From Bacillota bacterium (GTDB taxonomy: Bacteria; Bacillota; Sulfobacillia; Sulfobacillales; Sulfobacillaceae), in NCBI GenBank assembly GCA_021795465.1, contig JAJYPK010000002.1, positions 1 through 64,000 on the forward strand: DNA of 64,000 nucleotides. The letters run 5' to 3'. The notes below the pieces were generated by a model, which was given only the letters and a program-made list of their open reading frames with translations, was not told the DNA's origin and searched no databases. A program made the position numbers and the translations under genes. The first letter of the stretch is position 1, and every line of letters begins with the position of its first letter. Below, one piece after another: positions 26,244 through 32,285 of the stretch.

Positions 26244-27136
26244 GAGAGCTCAGTCGAATCTGGCGGCGTACGTGGGGTTTAATCATTGTTTTGGTCCTGT
26301 TGGGAGTGGTTTTGGCTATTAGCCTAGATTTTTCAAAAACAGCACTGGGCCTTAATAAGAACTACACCCAACTGATCAAAGCCCTGATCATTTTAGTGGT
26401 CGGCGGCCTCATCTCATACATCTTGGAGCGCCATCTATTCCGTCTGGGACCGGACTCCGGCACTCGCAGTTCGTCTTTACGATTCTTTGTGCGACTCGTC
26501 TTGGCATTGGTGGTCGTGCTCTCCATATTGGCTGCCTTTGGGGTTGGGATATCGTCCGTCGTCTTCGGCGGCGCATTCTTTACGGTCATCGTCGGTCTAG
26601 CTGGGCAAACCATGTTTGGAAACCTCATTGCGGGGATTGCTCTGGTCATTTTCCGCCCGTTTGACGTAGGTAATCACATTACCTTCGTGGCTTGGCAGTA
26701 TCCGATGCTGATGCCGTCATATCCACACGACGCGTTGAAACCCGGCTATTCGGGGATAGTCACCGACGTCAATTTAATGTATACGACGCTTCGTACCGAT
26801 CACGGCCTGCCGATGATGGTCCCTAATGGCATCATCATTCAGGCCGCCATCGAAAACCACAATCGCTCCCTACAGCGTCAAATCCGGTTTCGGTTCGATC
26901 TTCCGTTGTCTACCCCCGCCGAAACCGTGATTCAAGCCACCCGCCGGATATTGCAGACACACAATTACCCTGGGGATGCCTGGGTGGTCGATGTGTCTCC
27001 GACAACCTATTCGATTGCGATTGGTGTTCATTACACGGGTCAAGACATTCGAGAAGACCAAGTGAAACATCACATCCTAGGTGATTTGGTGCCGATTTTA
27101 GACCGCTTAACAACCGAACCGGATCCGACCCATTAA
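26228..27136 (+). CDS. MscS-family mechanosensitive ion channel
   Basis: A 302-aa protein with three to four N-terminal spans (about 17-35, 47-65, 88-108, 112-145). The pore helix and following beta domain are recognisable: GGAFFTVIVGLAGQTMFGNL near 118-137, then ALVIFRPFDVGNHI, then VPNGIIIQAAIENHNR near 198. MscS channels open on membrane tension to release solutes during osmotic downshock. GAGAAGGGGG lies upstream of the ATG. It is divergent from the S1 gene and converges on rluD with a 4-bp overlap of stop codons. Confidence 0.88.
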   Translation: MNHNSRELSRIWRRTWGLIIVLVLLGVVLAISLDFSKTALGLNKNYTQLIKALIILVVGGLISYILERHLFRLGPDSGTRSSSLRFFVRLVLALVVVLSILAAFGVGISSVVFGGAFFTVIVGLAGQTMFGNLIAGIALVIFRPFDVGNHITFVAWQYPMLMPSYPHDALKPGYSGIVTDVNLMYTTLRTDHGLPMMVPNGIIIQAAIENHNRSLQRQIRFRFDLPLSTPAETVIQATRRILQTHNYPGDAWVVDVSPTTYSIAIGVHYTGQDIREDQVKHHILGDLVPILDRLTTEPDPTH

Positions 27137-28158
27137 GGGAGATTAGCGCCTTCGGTGGACCATTGCATCCTCTGTAAGAAATCGATGGTGGATTCGTCAG
27201 GACATTCGAGAATTGTGGGTGCGAAGACAGGGCTTGCCATGGGTTGCCACCGCCCTTCGGTCTTGCCCACCACCCTCCAGTCACCGGGGAGGTCAACCAT
27301 AAAGCACAAAGCTTTTTCGGTAATCGGATGCATAAAGGCTAACGCCGCGGCATGTAAGGCTTGGCCCTCAAGACCGGCACAAGGCTCCCCGCCATATACG
27401 ATGTCCCCGACCACGGGATGACCAATACTAGCAAGATGCACTCGAATCTGGTGAGTCCGGCCGGTCTCCAAGCCTAGTTGTACCAAGGCATGGTTTTCCC
27501 CCTGAGCCAGGGTCCGGTAATGCGTAATGGCCGGCCGTCCGCCAAGTACCACGGCCATTTTCACGCGGTGCTTAGGGTGTCTCGCGATGGGGGCTTCAAT
27601 GGTACCGATGGGCACCGCGAGATGCCCCATTATGACAGCAAGATAACGTCGATACACTTTACGCTGTTGAATCGCTTCAGAGAGCCGTCGTCGTACGATT
27701 TCATTCCGAGCCAGCACGAGGAGTCCCGTCGTATCCCGATCTAAACGGTGCACCACACCGGGCCGTAAATCATCGGCTGCCTCCGTGGTCAGGAGCGGCC
27801 AGAGCCGATGGACCAATGAGTCCTCGCGATGACCAGCACTTGGATGCACGACCAGTCCTCGAGGTTTATTCACCACAACGATCCAATCATCCTGATAGAC
27901 CACCAAGCTTTGATCTGGGTAAGCGTTGGAAATCGGTACTGGGCTCTCGGGCTCTAGCCATGTGACCTCAATCTCTTGACCTACCCGCACCAAATCTCGG
28001 GCGCGTGCTGGTTTTTTTGCAACCAGAATACCACCCTGACGCAATTCTCGCTGCCAGGCGGTCCGCGAGCGCTCGGGTAAAGTATCGGCGAGAAACCGGT
28101 CCATTCGGGTCGCCTCAGCGTCTGGTGGAACCACCAGAATTTCTCGACGTATAGGCAT
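27133..28158 (-). CDS. rluD: RluA/RluD-family pseudouridine synthase
   Basis: A 341-aa enzyme. An N-terminal S4 domain (residues ~15-75) is followed by the synthase fold with the catalytic motif HRLDRDTTGLLV near 137 and TGRTHQIRVHLASIGHPVVGD near 230 (TGRTHQIRVHL). It isomerises uridines, probably in 23S rRNA helix 69 or related sites. In Bacillus the orthologous ylyB also follows lspA. The ATG lies 44 bp inside the lspA end. Part of its 5' end has been duplicated at 28933-29094. The C-terminal ~30 residues are not family-typical. Confidence 0.9.
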   Translation of the reverse strand: MPIRREILVVPPDAEATRMDRFLADTLPERSRTAWQRELRQGGILVAKKPARARDLVRVGQEIEVTWLEPESPVPISNAYPDQSLVVYQDDWIVVVNKPRGLVVHPSAGHREDSLVHRLWPLLTTEAADDLRPGVVHRLDRDTTGLLVLARNEIVRRRLSEAIQQRKVYRRYLAVIMGHLAVPIGTIEAPIARHPKHRVKMAVVLGGRPAITHYRTLAQGENHALVQLGLETGRTHQIRVHLASIGHPVVGDIVYGGEPCAGLEGQALHAAALAFMHPITEKALCFMVDLPGDWRVVGKTEGRWQPMASPVFAPTILECPDESTIDFLQRMQWSTEGANLP

Positions 28159-28615
28159 CGCGCCCCTCCTCCTGTCGACGCCAGTATTCCCACACTAACA
28201 AACTCATCCCTACGACGATGGCGGAATCGGCCAAATTAAATACGGCCCCGGACCAAAACCGCACGTGAATGTAGTCGATGACCCGCCCTGATACGAGGCG
28301 GTCCCATAGATTCCCGGCGGATCCTCCCGCGAGTAACCCCAGGCCCCATATCGCACGACGAGACAAATCCTTCACCCTCCACGCTACATAAGTTACGGCT
28401 CCTAACAATAAAAAGGCCACCACCACAAAGAGCCATGTACCATGTCGCAACAGAGAAAATGCCGCACCATTATTGAGGATATACGTAATCCACAAGAGGT
28501 GCGGGATGACCGGAATACTTTGGCCCAGACCCATGCTGCGGGCGACCCAGATCTTTAACACCCGATCTAACACAACGATCATAAACGCCAGGTACAGGAT
28601 ATTCCATCGACTCAC
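28115..28615 (-). CDS. lspA: Signal peptidase II, copy 1
   Basis: A 166-aa prolipoprotein signal peptidase with four spans. Conserved positions are present: LDRVLKIW near residue 16, YILNNGAAFSLL near 45, GNLWDRL near 102 and the catalytic Asp in FNLADSAI near 127. It removes signal peptides from lipoproteins such as the one at 23.6-24.9 kb. Starts at GTG and overlaps the rluD start by 44 bp. A paralogue of nearly the same sequence lies at 29071-29550; this copy keeps the original junction with rluD. Confidence 0.93.
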   Translation of the reverse strand: MSRWNILYLAFMIVVLDRVLKIWVARSMGLGQSIPVIPHLLWITYILNNGAAFSLLRHGTWLFVVVAFLLLGAVTYVAWRVKDLSRRAIWGLGLLAGGSAGNLWDRLVSGRVIDYIHVRFWSGAVFNLADSAIVVGMSLLVWEYWRRQEEGRDAYTSRNSGGSTRR

Positions 28616-28812
28616 AGGGGAAACCCAAGGCTATCGACAACCTCGTAGCAACGCGTGCAGAGGTCGTCATAGCGTGCATTTTGTCCCACGTCACCGGTGT
28701 ACCGCCAGCATCGCTCACAACGCTTATGGTCGGTGGCTACAGCGCTCATCGTCACTTCGTCTCCTATTTCTACCAGTACTGCGGGCGGCCATCACCATTT
28801 CGGCTAGTCTCC
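28612..28812 (-). pseudogene. Fragment of the ileS 3' end
   Basis: The minus strand encodes the last ~47 residues of IleRS (zinc-finger KRCERCWRYTGDVG and DLCTRCYEVVDSLGFPL) with its stop at 28612, then loses similarity and frame upstream. It is a by-product of the tandem duplication and has no start, T-box or catalytic domain. Confidence 0.9.
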
Positions 28813-28932
28813 CTCCCCTGTCTCCCTCAGCTTGCTCCCCACAACGACCCACTCATCCTGATCGACAGAGGCTTTGATTCCCGTGATCATTGGACATCGG
28901 TGCGGGGACTCCCTTCTCTTGCTCTTGTCACT

Positions 28933-29094
28933 TGACCTCAATCTCTTGACCTACCCGTCCAAATCTTGGGAGTGCGCTGGTTGTTTGGAATAAGAATACC
29001 ACCCTGACGCAATTCTCGCCGCCAGCACTCGGGTAAGGTATCGGCGAGAAACCGTTCCATTCGAGTCGCCTCAGCGTCTGGTAGAACCACCAGA
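28933..29094 (-). pseudogene. 5' relic of rluD
   Basis: Aligns with the first ~65 codons of rluD but lacks the start codon region (a 16-bp deletion just where the ATG was) and has further indels, for example loss of about 12 bp matching the RTAWQRE region. It then ends in unrelated sequence, so it cannot make a protein. Confidence 0.85.
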
Positions 29095-29550
29095 ATCATC
29101 GCGCCCCGCCTCCTGTCGACGCCAGTATTCCCACACCAACAAACTCATTCCAATGACGATAGCAGAATCGGCCAGATTAAATACGGCCCAAAAGCGTACG
29201 TGAATGTAGTCGATGACCCGCCCTGACACGAGACGGTCCCATAGATTCCCAGCGGAGCCTCCCGCGAGTAACCCCAGGCCCCAAATCGCACGCCGAGACA
29301 AGTCCTGCACCCTCCACGCCACATAAGCTACGGCTCCTATCAATAAAAAGGCCACCACCACAAAGAGCCACGTACTATGTCGCAACAGAGAAAATGCCGC
29401 ACCACTATTGAGGATATACGTAATCCACAAGACATGCGGGATGACCGGAATACTTTGGCCCAGAACCATGCTGCGGGCGACCCAGATCTTTAACACCCGA
29501 TCTAACACGACGACCACGAAAGCCAGGTACAGGATATTCCATCGACTCAC
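29071..29550 (-). CDS. lspA: Signal peptidase II, copy 2
   Basis: A 159-aa paralogue of the upstream lspA, with roughly a dozen substitutions. Catalytic and conserved blocks remain (LDRVLKIW, ILNSGAAFSLL, GNLWDRL, FNLADSAI). Compared with copy 1, two residues (Ser-Gly) are missing just before the AVFNLAD segment and the tail is shorter. GTG 29550 overlaps the ileS stop as GTGA; the open frame upstream is within ileS. Since it directly follows ileS it should be transcribed from the T-box-controlled promoter. Confidence 0.9.
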   Translation of the reverse strand: MSRWNILYLAFVVVVLDRVLKIWVARSMVLGQSIPVIPHVLWITYILNSGAAFSLLRHSTWLFVVVAFLLIGAVAYVAWRVQDLSRRAIWGLGLLAGGSAGNLWDRLVSGRVIDYIHVRFWAVFNLADSAIVIGMSLLVWEYWRRQEAGRDDSGGSTRR

Positions 29551-32285
29551 AGGGGAAACCCAAGGCTTTCGACAACCTCGTAGCAACGCGTGCAGAGGTC
29601 GTCATAGCGTGCATTTTGTCCCACGTCACCGGTGTACCGCCAGCATCGCTCACAACGCTTACGGTCGGTGGCTACAGCGCTCGCCATCACTTCGTCTCCT
29701 ACTTCTATCAGTACTTGAGCCGCCATCACCATTTCGGCTAGTCTCCCCACCTCTGCCTCACTCAATGGGGCGTCTAAAGGCAGAGTGAGGGTGACCGCCG
29801 CCTGCAGGGAGTTCCCAATGGTTTTCTGGGCCCGTAATTCTTCCAAAGCCTTTAAGATGACCTCCCGATAGCCGAGAAGACGGTCCATCGCCGTCGCTTC
29901 TTCCGGGCTCCATCCAATATCCCAGGGTAGGGGCCATTCCGCAAGATGAACCGAGTCGGATGCACTGGCGTCTCGCTTGGCCGCTTGATAAACCTCATCC
30001 GCCGTGAATACCAATACCGGGGAGATTCCACGCACCAAAATTTGAAGAATTTCCGCCATCACCGACTGTGTCTCTCGCCGTAAAGGATCGTTGGGGGCAA
30101 GCGTGTACAGTCGATCCTTGATCACATCCAAGTAAAAACTCGACAAGTCAATCGTCATGAGGCGGACTAAGCTGTGCACGATGGGGTGGAAAACGTAAGC
30201 CCGATACGAAGCGCGGGCCTCGTTAGCCCAATCGGTCACGGTGGCCACAGCCCACCGATTCAAGGGATCCGATACGGCCGCTACCCGCTCCCCATCAAAG
30301 TCTTCGAGGTTTCCTAGCAAAAACCGAAAGGTGTTGCGGATCTTCCGATAGGTCTCAGCCAGTTGACCCAATATCTCATCAGAAATGCGGATGTCCGATC
30401 GATAGTCGCTTGTCGCCACCCAAAGCCGTAAAATATCCGCTCCAAACTTCGCGACAATGTCTAGGGGATCGATGGTGTTACCCAAGGACTTATGCATTTC
30501 CTGCCCAGATTTATCCAGAGCCATGCCATGGGTAAGAACCGTTTTGTATGGGGCCTTCCCACGCGACGCCACCCCGGTAACCAAAAGACTATTGAACCAT
30601 CCTCGATATTGGTCATTGCCCTCGATTACCACATCGGCTGGCCATTCCAAACCCGGATGGTCTGCCAGCACTGCAGCCTGGCTGGATCCAGAGTCGAGCC
30701 ATACATCAAAGATGTCCATTTCCTTCCGGAGGTTTTGACTATGGCACTCGTTGCAGGAAAATCCTTCAGGAAGGAAATAATTGGCTGCCTCGCTCCACCA
30801 GGTATCGGCTCCCTGTTCACTAATCACATCGGCAACATGCCGAATCAAAGTGGCGTCAAGAATGGGATGCCCGCAGTCTTGGCAAAAAAATGCGGGAATC
30901 GGCAGACCCCACACCCGCTGACGGGATAGACACCAATCCTGTCGATCCTCCACCATACGCCGCATCCGATCGCCCCCCCATTCTGGCTCCCATCGGACCG
31001 GATACGTCGCGTCGATCAATTGGGAACGGATTTGTCCTACCGACATGAACCACTGCGAAGTGGCACGGAAAATAACCGGGTTCTTGCACCGCCAACAAAA
31101 GGCATATTGATGATGAAACTTAGAGGCATGAAGGAGCGCACCGATCTCCGCCAGCTTTTCATTAATCACTGGATTGGCATCTCGATAAAAGAGACCTTGT
31201 ACCAAGGGTGTCCCTTGAAAATAACGCCCTTGGTCATCCAAGGGCTGAACCACTGGCAACTGATATTGCCGTCCCACTTCAAAGTCCTCCACCCCATGCC
31301 CGGGCGCCGTGTGTACCAGTCCGGTTCCGCTCTCTTGTGTCACATGACCTGCCAGGATGATCGGCACGTCATGACCTAGATAGGGATGTTGAGTGACTAA
31401 GCCTTCTAGAGTTCTGCCGATTCTGGGTTCTGAGATGGATTGGGCCTCGAGACCTACAGCCTCCATCACGGATGGGACCAAGTTTTGCCCAAGTAGAAGT
31501 GGTCCCTGGCTCGTAGTCACCACCACGTACGGTAGATCCGGATGCACCGCGATCGCCACATTGGCTGGAATGGTCCAAGGTGTCGTGGTCCAGATGACAG
31601 CCCGAGTTCCCGCGGGCAAGTCGCGGGATTTAGGATCGGCCACCTCGAAGGCGACATATATCGAGTCGGATTCCTGATCGTTATATTCAATCTCGCCTTC
31701 GGCTAGCGCAGTCTCACAGTGAGGGCACCAGTAGACACTTTTCAGATCCCGATAAATGAGCCCTCTTTCCACCATGTCGGCAAAGACCCGCAATTCCGCT
31801 CCTTCATAGGCAGGATTCATGGTGATGTATGGGTGATCCCAATCCCCCATGACGCCTAGGCGTTTAAATTCTTCGGTCATGACGCCAATGTAATGATCTG
31901 CCACAGCAGCACATTCACGACGCAGCGCCAACGATTCGATCTGGTGTTGGGAGACCCCGAGCTTTTTTAGGGCCCGCATTTCAATCGGCAAGCCATGGGT
32001 GTCCCAACCTGGTACGTAGACCACATCGTAACCCTCAAGGTTCCAAAATCGGTTAATCATGTCCTTTAGGATTTTATTCAGAGCGGTACCCGCATGGATG
32101 TCTCCGTTCGCATAAGGTGGACCATCGTGTAAAATGAACTTAGGTTTCCCTTGGCGCCGTTGCCGTTGACGGTCATATAGCGCAGTGCTCTCCCATTCCT
32201 GTAGCCATGCTGACTCCCGTGAAGGTAGATTTGCCTTCATGGGAAATGCTGTCTTGGGCAAGTTTAGTGTCTGTCGATAATCCAT
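29547..32285 (-). CDS. ileS: Isoleucyl-tRNA synthetase
   Basis: A 912-aa class I synthetase. The HIGH-type motif is PYANGDIHAGTALNK near residue 55, and the KMSKS-type motif is GQEMHKSLGN near 597. An editing domain lies between, and a C-terminal zinc finger CERCWRYTGDVG...CTRC closes the protein. It charges tRNA-Ile. ATG 32285 has GGAGGG 6 nt upstream; the longer open frame runs through the T-box terminator. Its last part is repeated at 28612-28812. The operon continues into lspA. Confidence 0.97.
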   Translation of the reverse strand: MDYRQTLNLPKTAFPMKANLPSRESAWLQEWESTALYDRQRQRRQGKPKFILHDGPPYANGDIHAGTALNKILKDMINRFWNLEGYDVVYVPGWDTHGLPIEMRALKKLGVSQHQIESLALRRECAAVADHYIGVMTEEFKRLGVMGDWDHPYITMNPAYEGAELRVFADMVERGLIYRDLKSVYWCPHCETALAEGEIEYNDQESDSIYVAFEVADPKSRDLPAGTRAVIWTTTPWTIPANVAIAVHPDLPYVVVTTSQGPLLLGQNLVPSVMEAVGLEAQSISEPRIGRTLEGLVTQHPYLGHDVPIILAGHVTQESGTGLVHTAPGHGVEDFEVGRQYQLPVVQPLDDQGRYFQGTPLVQGLFYRDANPVINEKLAEIGALLHASKFHHQYAFCWRCKNPVIFRATSQWFMSVGQIRSQLIDATYPVRWEPEWGGDRMRRMVEDRQDWCLSRQRVWGLPIPAFFCQDCGHPILDATLIRHVADVISEQGADTWWSEAANYFLPEGFSCNECHSQNLRKEMDIFDVWLDSGSSQAAVLADHPGLEWPADVVIEGNDQYRGWFNSLLVTGVASRGKAPYKTVLTHGMALDKSGQEMHKSLGNTIDPLDIVAKFGADILRLWVATSDYRSDIRISDEILGQLAETYRKIRNTFRFLLGNLEDFDGERVAAVSDPLNRWAVATVTDWANEARASYRAYVFHPIVHSLVRLMTIDLSSFYLDVIKDRLYTLAPNDPLRRETQSVMAEILQILVRGISPVLVFTADEVYQAAKRDASASDSVHLAEWPLPWDIGWSPEEATAMDRLLGYREVILKALEELRAQKTIGNSLQAAVTLTLPLDAPLSEAEVGRLAEMVMAAQVLIEVGDEVMASAVATDRKRCERCWRYTGDVGQNARYDDLCTRCYEVVESLGFPL

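Follow-up and report, generated by a model that had tools for sequence, protein, structure and literature searches.

The window analysed here, a stretch of 64,000 nucleotides from a Sulfobacillales genome (G000; contig JAJYPK010000002.1), contains a co-directional ileS–lspA–rluD cluster in which lspA, the gene for lipoprotein signal peptidase (signal peptidase II), occurs twice. Read along the minus strand, the order is intact ileS, lspA2, a relic of rluD, a relic of the ileS tail, lspA1 and intact rluD (Table 1), with the intact ileS upstream of one lspA copy (lspA2) and the intact rluD downstream of the other (lspA1). A BLASTN self-alignment resolves two direct repeats, each with a complete lspA flanked by the tail of ileS and the head of rluD, that abut with 6 bases between them and are identical in 838 of 967 columns (45 gap columns, E=0); across the window there is no other direct repeat of at least 60 bases. 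The nearest relative, G001, which is the only other genome compared from a genus sampled by two genomes only, has a single lspA between ileS and rluD. The locus thus carries adjoining direct repeats with truncated flanking genes, relic rluD and relic ileS, at their joint: a unit of about 0.93–0.96 kb was duplicated head to tail in tandem, leaving two complete lspA genes and the broken ends of two neighbouring genes. The initial annotation had called a tandem duplication with an rluD relic and an ileS tail fragment, and the adjoining repeats, the 970-base left-end offset between them and the alignment with G001 as outgroup bear this out. It located the two segments correctly but drew them too short (27963–28812 and 28933–29748), and the stretch outside them, 28813–28932, is itself relic rluD and ileS tail.

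Table 1. Features of the duplicated lspA locus (window coordinates) and the full-length lgt genes of the same genome (contig coordinates)
Feature	Coordinates	Strand	Basis
Unit copy A: relic ileS tail, lspA1, head of intact rluD	27870..28829	-	BLASTN self-alignment; three-way alignment with G001
Unit copy B: tail of intact ileS, lspA2, relic rluD head	28836..29764	-	BLASTN self-alignment; three-way alignment with G001
lspA1 (copy 1), 166 aa; GTG start overlaps TGA of relic ileS tail	28115..28615	-	Open reading frame; PF01252 121.4 bits; TIGR00077 109.7 bits
lspA2 (copy 2), 159 aa from GTG overlapping ileS stop; listed open reading frame, from TTG 29586, longer	29071..29550	-	Open reading frame; PF01252 123.2 bits; TIGR00077 109.9 bits
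Insertion of 6 bases in lspA1 (Ser122-Gly123), loop between the two catalytic Asp; position within G run approximate	28247..28252	-	LspA alignment
Relic ileS 3' end; upstream frame closed by one-base indel; open 28791-28612 (59 codons) to TGA overlapping lspA1 GTG	28612..28829	-	G001 alignment, frame check
Relic rluD head; 15- and 12-base deletions, then single-base frameshifts; ATG at 29099 opens just 53 codons	28836..29099	-	BLASTN, G001 alignment, frame check
Intact ileS, 934 aa	29547..32351	-	TIGR00392 872.8 bits (cut-off 621.4)
Intact rluD-type pseudouridine synthase, 341 aa; start overlaps lspA1 end	27133..28158	-	TIGR00005 260.7 bits (cut-off 192.7)
Four full-length lgt (L052-L055)	G000:C24:11059-11694, C45:3903-4523, C241:4568-5197, C244:11294-11914		Profile matches

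Both proteins look like functional lipoprotein signal peptidases. LspA1 and LspA2 each exceed the curated cut-offs of PF01252 (Peptidase_A8, 25 bits) and TIGR00077 (73.95 bits), and each retains 14 of the 14 highly conserved LspA residues given in PMC6952399, the catalytic dyad included, in agreement with the earlier observation that the catalytic Asp motifs are kept in both. Over the whole gene they differ by 12 amino-acid replacements and by in-frame indels of two and five residues, close to the dozen or so differences first counted. An AlphaFold2 model of LspA1 (37 sequences, mean predicted local distance difference test score 84.9) has helices at residues 3–26, 59–79, 85–107 and 127–159 with strands between them, which in this model gives the four transmembrane helices and β-cradle of the family, and its best PDB matches are the LspA structures 6ryp, 5dir and 6ryo (template modelling scores 0.75–0.80). 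Because the 14 conserved residues are kept in both copies and an LspA fold is predicted for LspA1, we infer that both encode active signal peptidase II. The two genes cluster together in the lspA tree (support 93), which leaves a horizontal origin of one copy unsupported. The unusual residues are mostly in lspA1, which is changed at Val29, Val40, Ser49 and Ser59, all kept in lspA2 and in G001; lspA2 is the odd copy at positions 71 and 82.

Differences between the units are unevenly spread. They affect 5 of 141 ileS-tail sites close to lspA and 5 of 55 at a greater distance from it, 32 of 451 sites in lspA and, moving through rluD towards the joint, 6 of 82, 11 of 88 and 22 of 88 sites. The ileS tail also holds a 93-base run identical in both units (28634–28726; P=0.037 under uniform placement), which is suggestive only and would fit either gene conversion or constraint; gene conversion was not adopted as an established reading, since a retained coupled reading frame would account for the run too. 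The open 59-codon frame in the relic ileS tail retains the IleRS zinc-finger cysteines, and it may possibly serve as a coupled leader or encode a small zinc-finger peptide.

Over the portion of lspA that precedes the rluD overlap, the two copies are separated by 21 synonymous and 11 non-synonymous changes, that is, a synonymous distance (dS) of 0.218, a non-synonymous distance (dN) of 0.033 and a ratio of the two (omega) of 0.15. Since dS to G001 is 1.08–1.11, against about 0.22 between the copies, the duplication is by this measure younger than the split from G001 but not fresh, and is best described as moderately old; its first description as recent-looking holds only in the former sense. 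Without constraint, a free-branch codon model could not separate the two branches; given the remote outgroup and the collapse of the lspA2 branch, its omegas were dropped as uninformative and replaced by an equal-age (clock-constrained) codon model of 152 codons in seven sequences with asymptotic likelihood-ratio tests, from which the sequences of G004 and of an extra copy in G024 (contig C127), both present in the lspA tree alignment, were left out. In this model omega is 0.26 for lspA1, 0.14 for lspA2 and 0.08 for the background, and both copies reject omega=1, lspA1 at p=0.0017 and lspA2 at p=8e-5. A count test points the same way: one neutral copy paired with another evolving at omega 0.08 would give 11 or fewer replacements in 32 changes with P=0.007. 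The relic ends have been decaying while purifying selection holds both lspA frames, and the selection on both copies that the initial annotation had suspected from their intact frames is supported.

The arrangement recurs within the order. At least two PF01252 matches are present in 29 of the 42 order genomes (G000 included), and two matches lie within about 2.1 kb of each other in three, G000, G029 and G043. In G029 and G043, two of the 41 other order genomes, the tandem pair occupies the same ileS–rluD site and involves the same kind of unit (ileS tail–lspA–rluD) as in G000, but breakpoints and ages are unlike those of G000. The two units of G029, each 887 bases long and 86% identical to one another, stretch from the ileS tail into the first bases of rluD and abut exactly; the lspA pair has a dS of 0.30 and an omega of 0.10, and a model with one neutral copy is rejected (P=6e-5). 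The unit in G043 is about 2 kb long and 98% identical, with the second rluD broken and the second lspA whole, this lspA having one extra Phe before the FNLAD motif; because the pair differs by just three synonymous and three other changes, it says nothing on selection. Since the breakpoints differ, the three duplications are separate events. Among 148 other genomes of the phylum there is no tandem lspA, and in the 11 that have at least two PF01252 matches these are adjacent in none. Among the control genes lgt, uppS, smpB and frr, sought in the same 42 order genomes and found in 39, 42, 37 and 41 of them, respectively, none of the 159 cases found (of 168) is a tandem pair, fragment sets of lgt in G024 and G021 not being counted as pairs. 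Against the phylum genomes a Fisher test yields p=0.010 (0.046 once the index case is dropped), and against the control genes p=0.009 (0.041 once it is dropped). Two signal peptidases in one operon, which had been called unusual, are thus unusual with respect to the rest of the phylum, but they recur in the order and a tandem pair is known in Myxococcus xanthus, as discussed below.

The reading that we favour, with a probability of roughly 0.7, is that this tandem duplication has been retained and gives the cell two signal peptidases. LspA2, behind the intact ileS, would be the conservative housekeeping copy, and LspA1, before the intact rluD, the faster copy, its inter-aspartate loop either drifting or becoming specialised. 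lspA1 is probably still translated via the retained ileS tail, because this tail preserves the four bases, GTGA, through which the ileS stop and the lspA start overlap in the parent operon, an overlap that G001 shares. Recurrence at the same spot suggests that additional LspA has been of benefit on more than one occasion, and dosage is the most likely motive for keeping the pair, whether the gain lay in greater capacity to process lipoproteins or in withstanding an LspA inhibitor. Several points weigh against this reading. The dosage motive is its weaker part, being drawn from the recurrence, and the recurrence is a lead only, because the genomes are related, the assemblies fragmented and the test post hoc. 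In the free-branch codon model, the lspA2 branch is near zero and, without the equal-age constraint, indistinguishable from neutral. Under equal age, lspA1 is looser than background (p=0.03); lspA2 is no different from it (p=0.42). Finally, lspA1 has replacements at sites that are stable in relatives, and it could be early in decay.

This last idea, that one copy, most likely lspA1, is redundant and becoming a pseudogene whose intact frame is just a matter of time, is in our view unlikely. It would account for the raised omega of lspA1 and for its longer branch in the lspA tree (0.054 vs 0.028), for an insertion in its dyad loop that is found in no relative examined, and it has a parallel in the related extra copy G024:C127, which is plainly decayed. 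However, the equal-age model rejects neutrality of lspA1 itself, the replacements are too few for a neutral copy, and both lspA indels are in frame, in contrast to the frameshifts of the relic rluD next to it.

The G024 copy belongs to a decayed extra ileS–lspA–rluD locus (L034, G024:C127:1-960), present in addition to the genome's resident locus; in it, an internal piece of ileS runs into a short remnant similar to the zinc-finger end, and an lspA with an open frame and the head of rluD are also present. Its lspA has lost the residues matching D21 and K25, the flanking ileS and rluD are broken, and the gene is probably dead; one neighbouring protein matches both genera at 50–51%. It was not counted as a further tandem case, given that it is not adjacent to the resident ileS–lspA–rluD (C52), is without the D21 and K25 equivalents and is of unclear provenance. 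Three other genomes have a solo second lspA, about 51–56% identical to LspA2 (L036, G003:C83; L037, G012:C139; L038, G006:C95), with no ileS or rluD match beside it within the stretch fetched. G000 itself encodes a third, divergent LspA-like protein (L040, G000:C247:6275-6679), with its GNxxDR motif substituted at the Asp and its FNxAD motif at the Ala, and PF01252 matches as low-scoring as this one occur in many order genomes. A mobile-element or metal-island setting for the other extra lspA copies was rejected: the 10 neighbouring proteins scanned at L036, L037, L038, L040 and L054 showed no shared theme, with one resolvase lying near G012:C139. G000 also has four full-strength lgt genes, the most among the 42 order genomes (three in G001, one in most of the order), two of them (C45 and C241) 95% identical. 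The extra lspA and lgt copies would fit a cell with gained dosage for lipoprotein processing.

One difference between the two enzymes is a Ser-Gly pair in LspA1, in the loop between the strand that follows the first catalytic Asp and the last helix of the model. The initial annotation had copy 2 losing this pair, but the polarity is the reverse: neither lspA2 nor any of the 35 other rows of the LspA alignment has it, so it is an insertion in copy 1, and a deletion in copy 2 was rejected. Added length here is compatible with an active enzyme, because solved LspA chains have 4–5 more residues at this site than LspA2. In an alignment that left out L028, L029 and the loci of G025, G030, G031 and G041, 28 of the 30 resident rows have a spacing of 14 between the catalytic aspartates, and the other two (L022 and L032) have 15. 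Among the extra copies, the spacing is 16 in LspA1, 15 in G024:C127, the second copy of G043 and G003:C83, and 14 in G012:C139, G006:C95 and the second copy of G029. Longer spacing is therefore found in 4 of 7 extra copies against 2 of 30 residents, p=0.007 with a grouping drawn post hoc. Two of the three extra copies of normal spacing, G012:C139 and G006:C95, share a Val in place of the conserved Phe that precedes the catalytic-site Asn, and the second copy of G029 has Thr in place of Pro.

Such changes raise the rather doubtful prospect, a sub-case of the retained two-enzyme reading, that the longer-loop LspA1 is specialised for other substrates or less sensitive to natural LspA inhibitors, with LspA2 as the housekeeping enzyme. 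The spacing bias, the loss of the conserved Phe in two further extra copies and the longer loop of solved enzymes would all agree with it. Yet LspA1 was placed in the post hoc extra class partly for its own insertion, and without it the bias falls to 3 of the remaining 6 (p about 0.024, a hand calculation on the counts); the loop changes fit relaxed constraint and specialisation alike. An equally speculative extension, which we consider improbable, is that Sulfobacillales repeatedly duplicate lspA in place, the spare evolving in the inter-aspartate loop until it acts on different substrates or is less affected by natural LspA inhibitors, as a second signal peptidase, alongside an expanded lgt and lspA set. 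That two strain variants of one locus were joined in tandem by the assembly is very improbable, for although the assembly (3.58 Mb, estimated 100% complete) is in 252 contigs, its contamination is estimated at 0.52%, the frameshifts and deletions of the inner rluD and the frame break of the inner ileS are unexpected in functional alleles of another strain, and G029 has the same architecture at 86% identity.

The significance of a retained pair lies in LspA being an antibiotic target, amplification of its gene being a known laboratory route to inhibitor tolerance. A natural pair that is fixed and under selection, and whose relatives carry duplications of separate origin, would be a system for studying under which conditions, and for what reasons, cells retain additional copies of signal peptidase II; should the two copies turn out to be plainly redundant, the locus is an ordinary duplication seen partway through its decay. 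A literature search found no paper naming both Sulfobacillus and lipoprotein signal peptidase and, in titles and abstract openings, no report of lspA duplication in the Sulfobacillus group.

One of the closest known parallels is in M. xanthus, whose lspA1 and lspA2 were reportedly characterised in a primary study by Xiao and Wall in 2014. According to a review (PMC8689077), the M. xanthus genes are, like the G000 pair, in tandem in one operon, and both are thought to be housekeeping genes; unlike in G000, the operon includes lgt, and two further lspA genes lie in an antibiotic cluster. The G000 pair differs in its position between ileS and rluD and in the relic pieces that show the duplication directly. 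In Escherichia coli, Pantua et al. described unstable amplifications that include lspA, increase LspA to a modest degree and make the cells tolerant of an LspA inhibitor (PMC7482066). The amplified stretch includes lspA as in G000, the raised LspA dose being a feature of the E. coli case, but those amplifications are unstable and laboratory-selected, whereas the G000 duplication is small, fixed in the assembly and about 0.22 synonymous substitutions per site old. In view of these two cases, neither two lspA genes in an operon nor lspA amplification is new. GlobF, a second LspA encoded within the Streptomyces globomycin cluster, resembles both G000 copies in having all 14 conserved residues (PMC9943842); it sits, however, in a biosynthetic cluster, and the G000 pair in the ileS–rluD housekeeping cluster.

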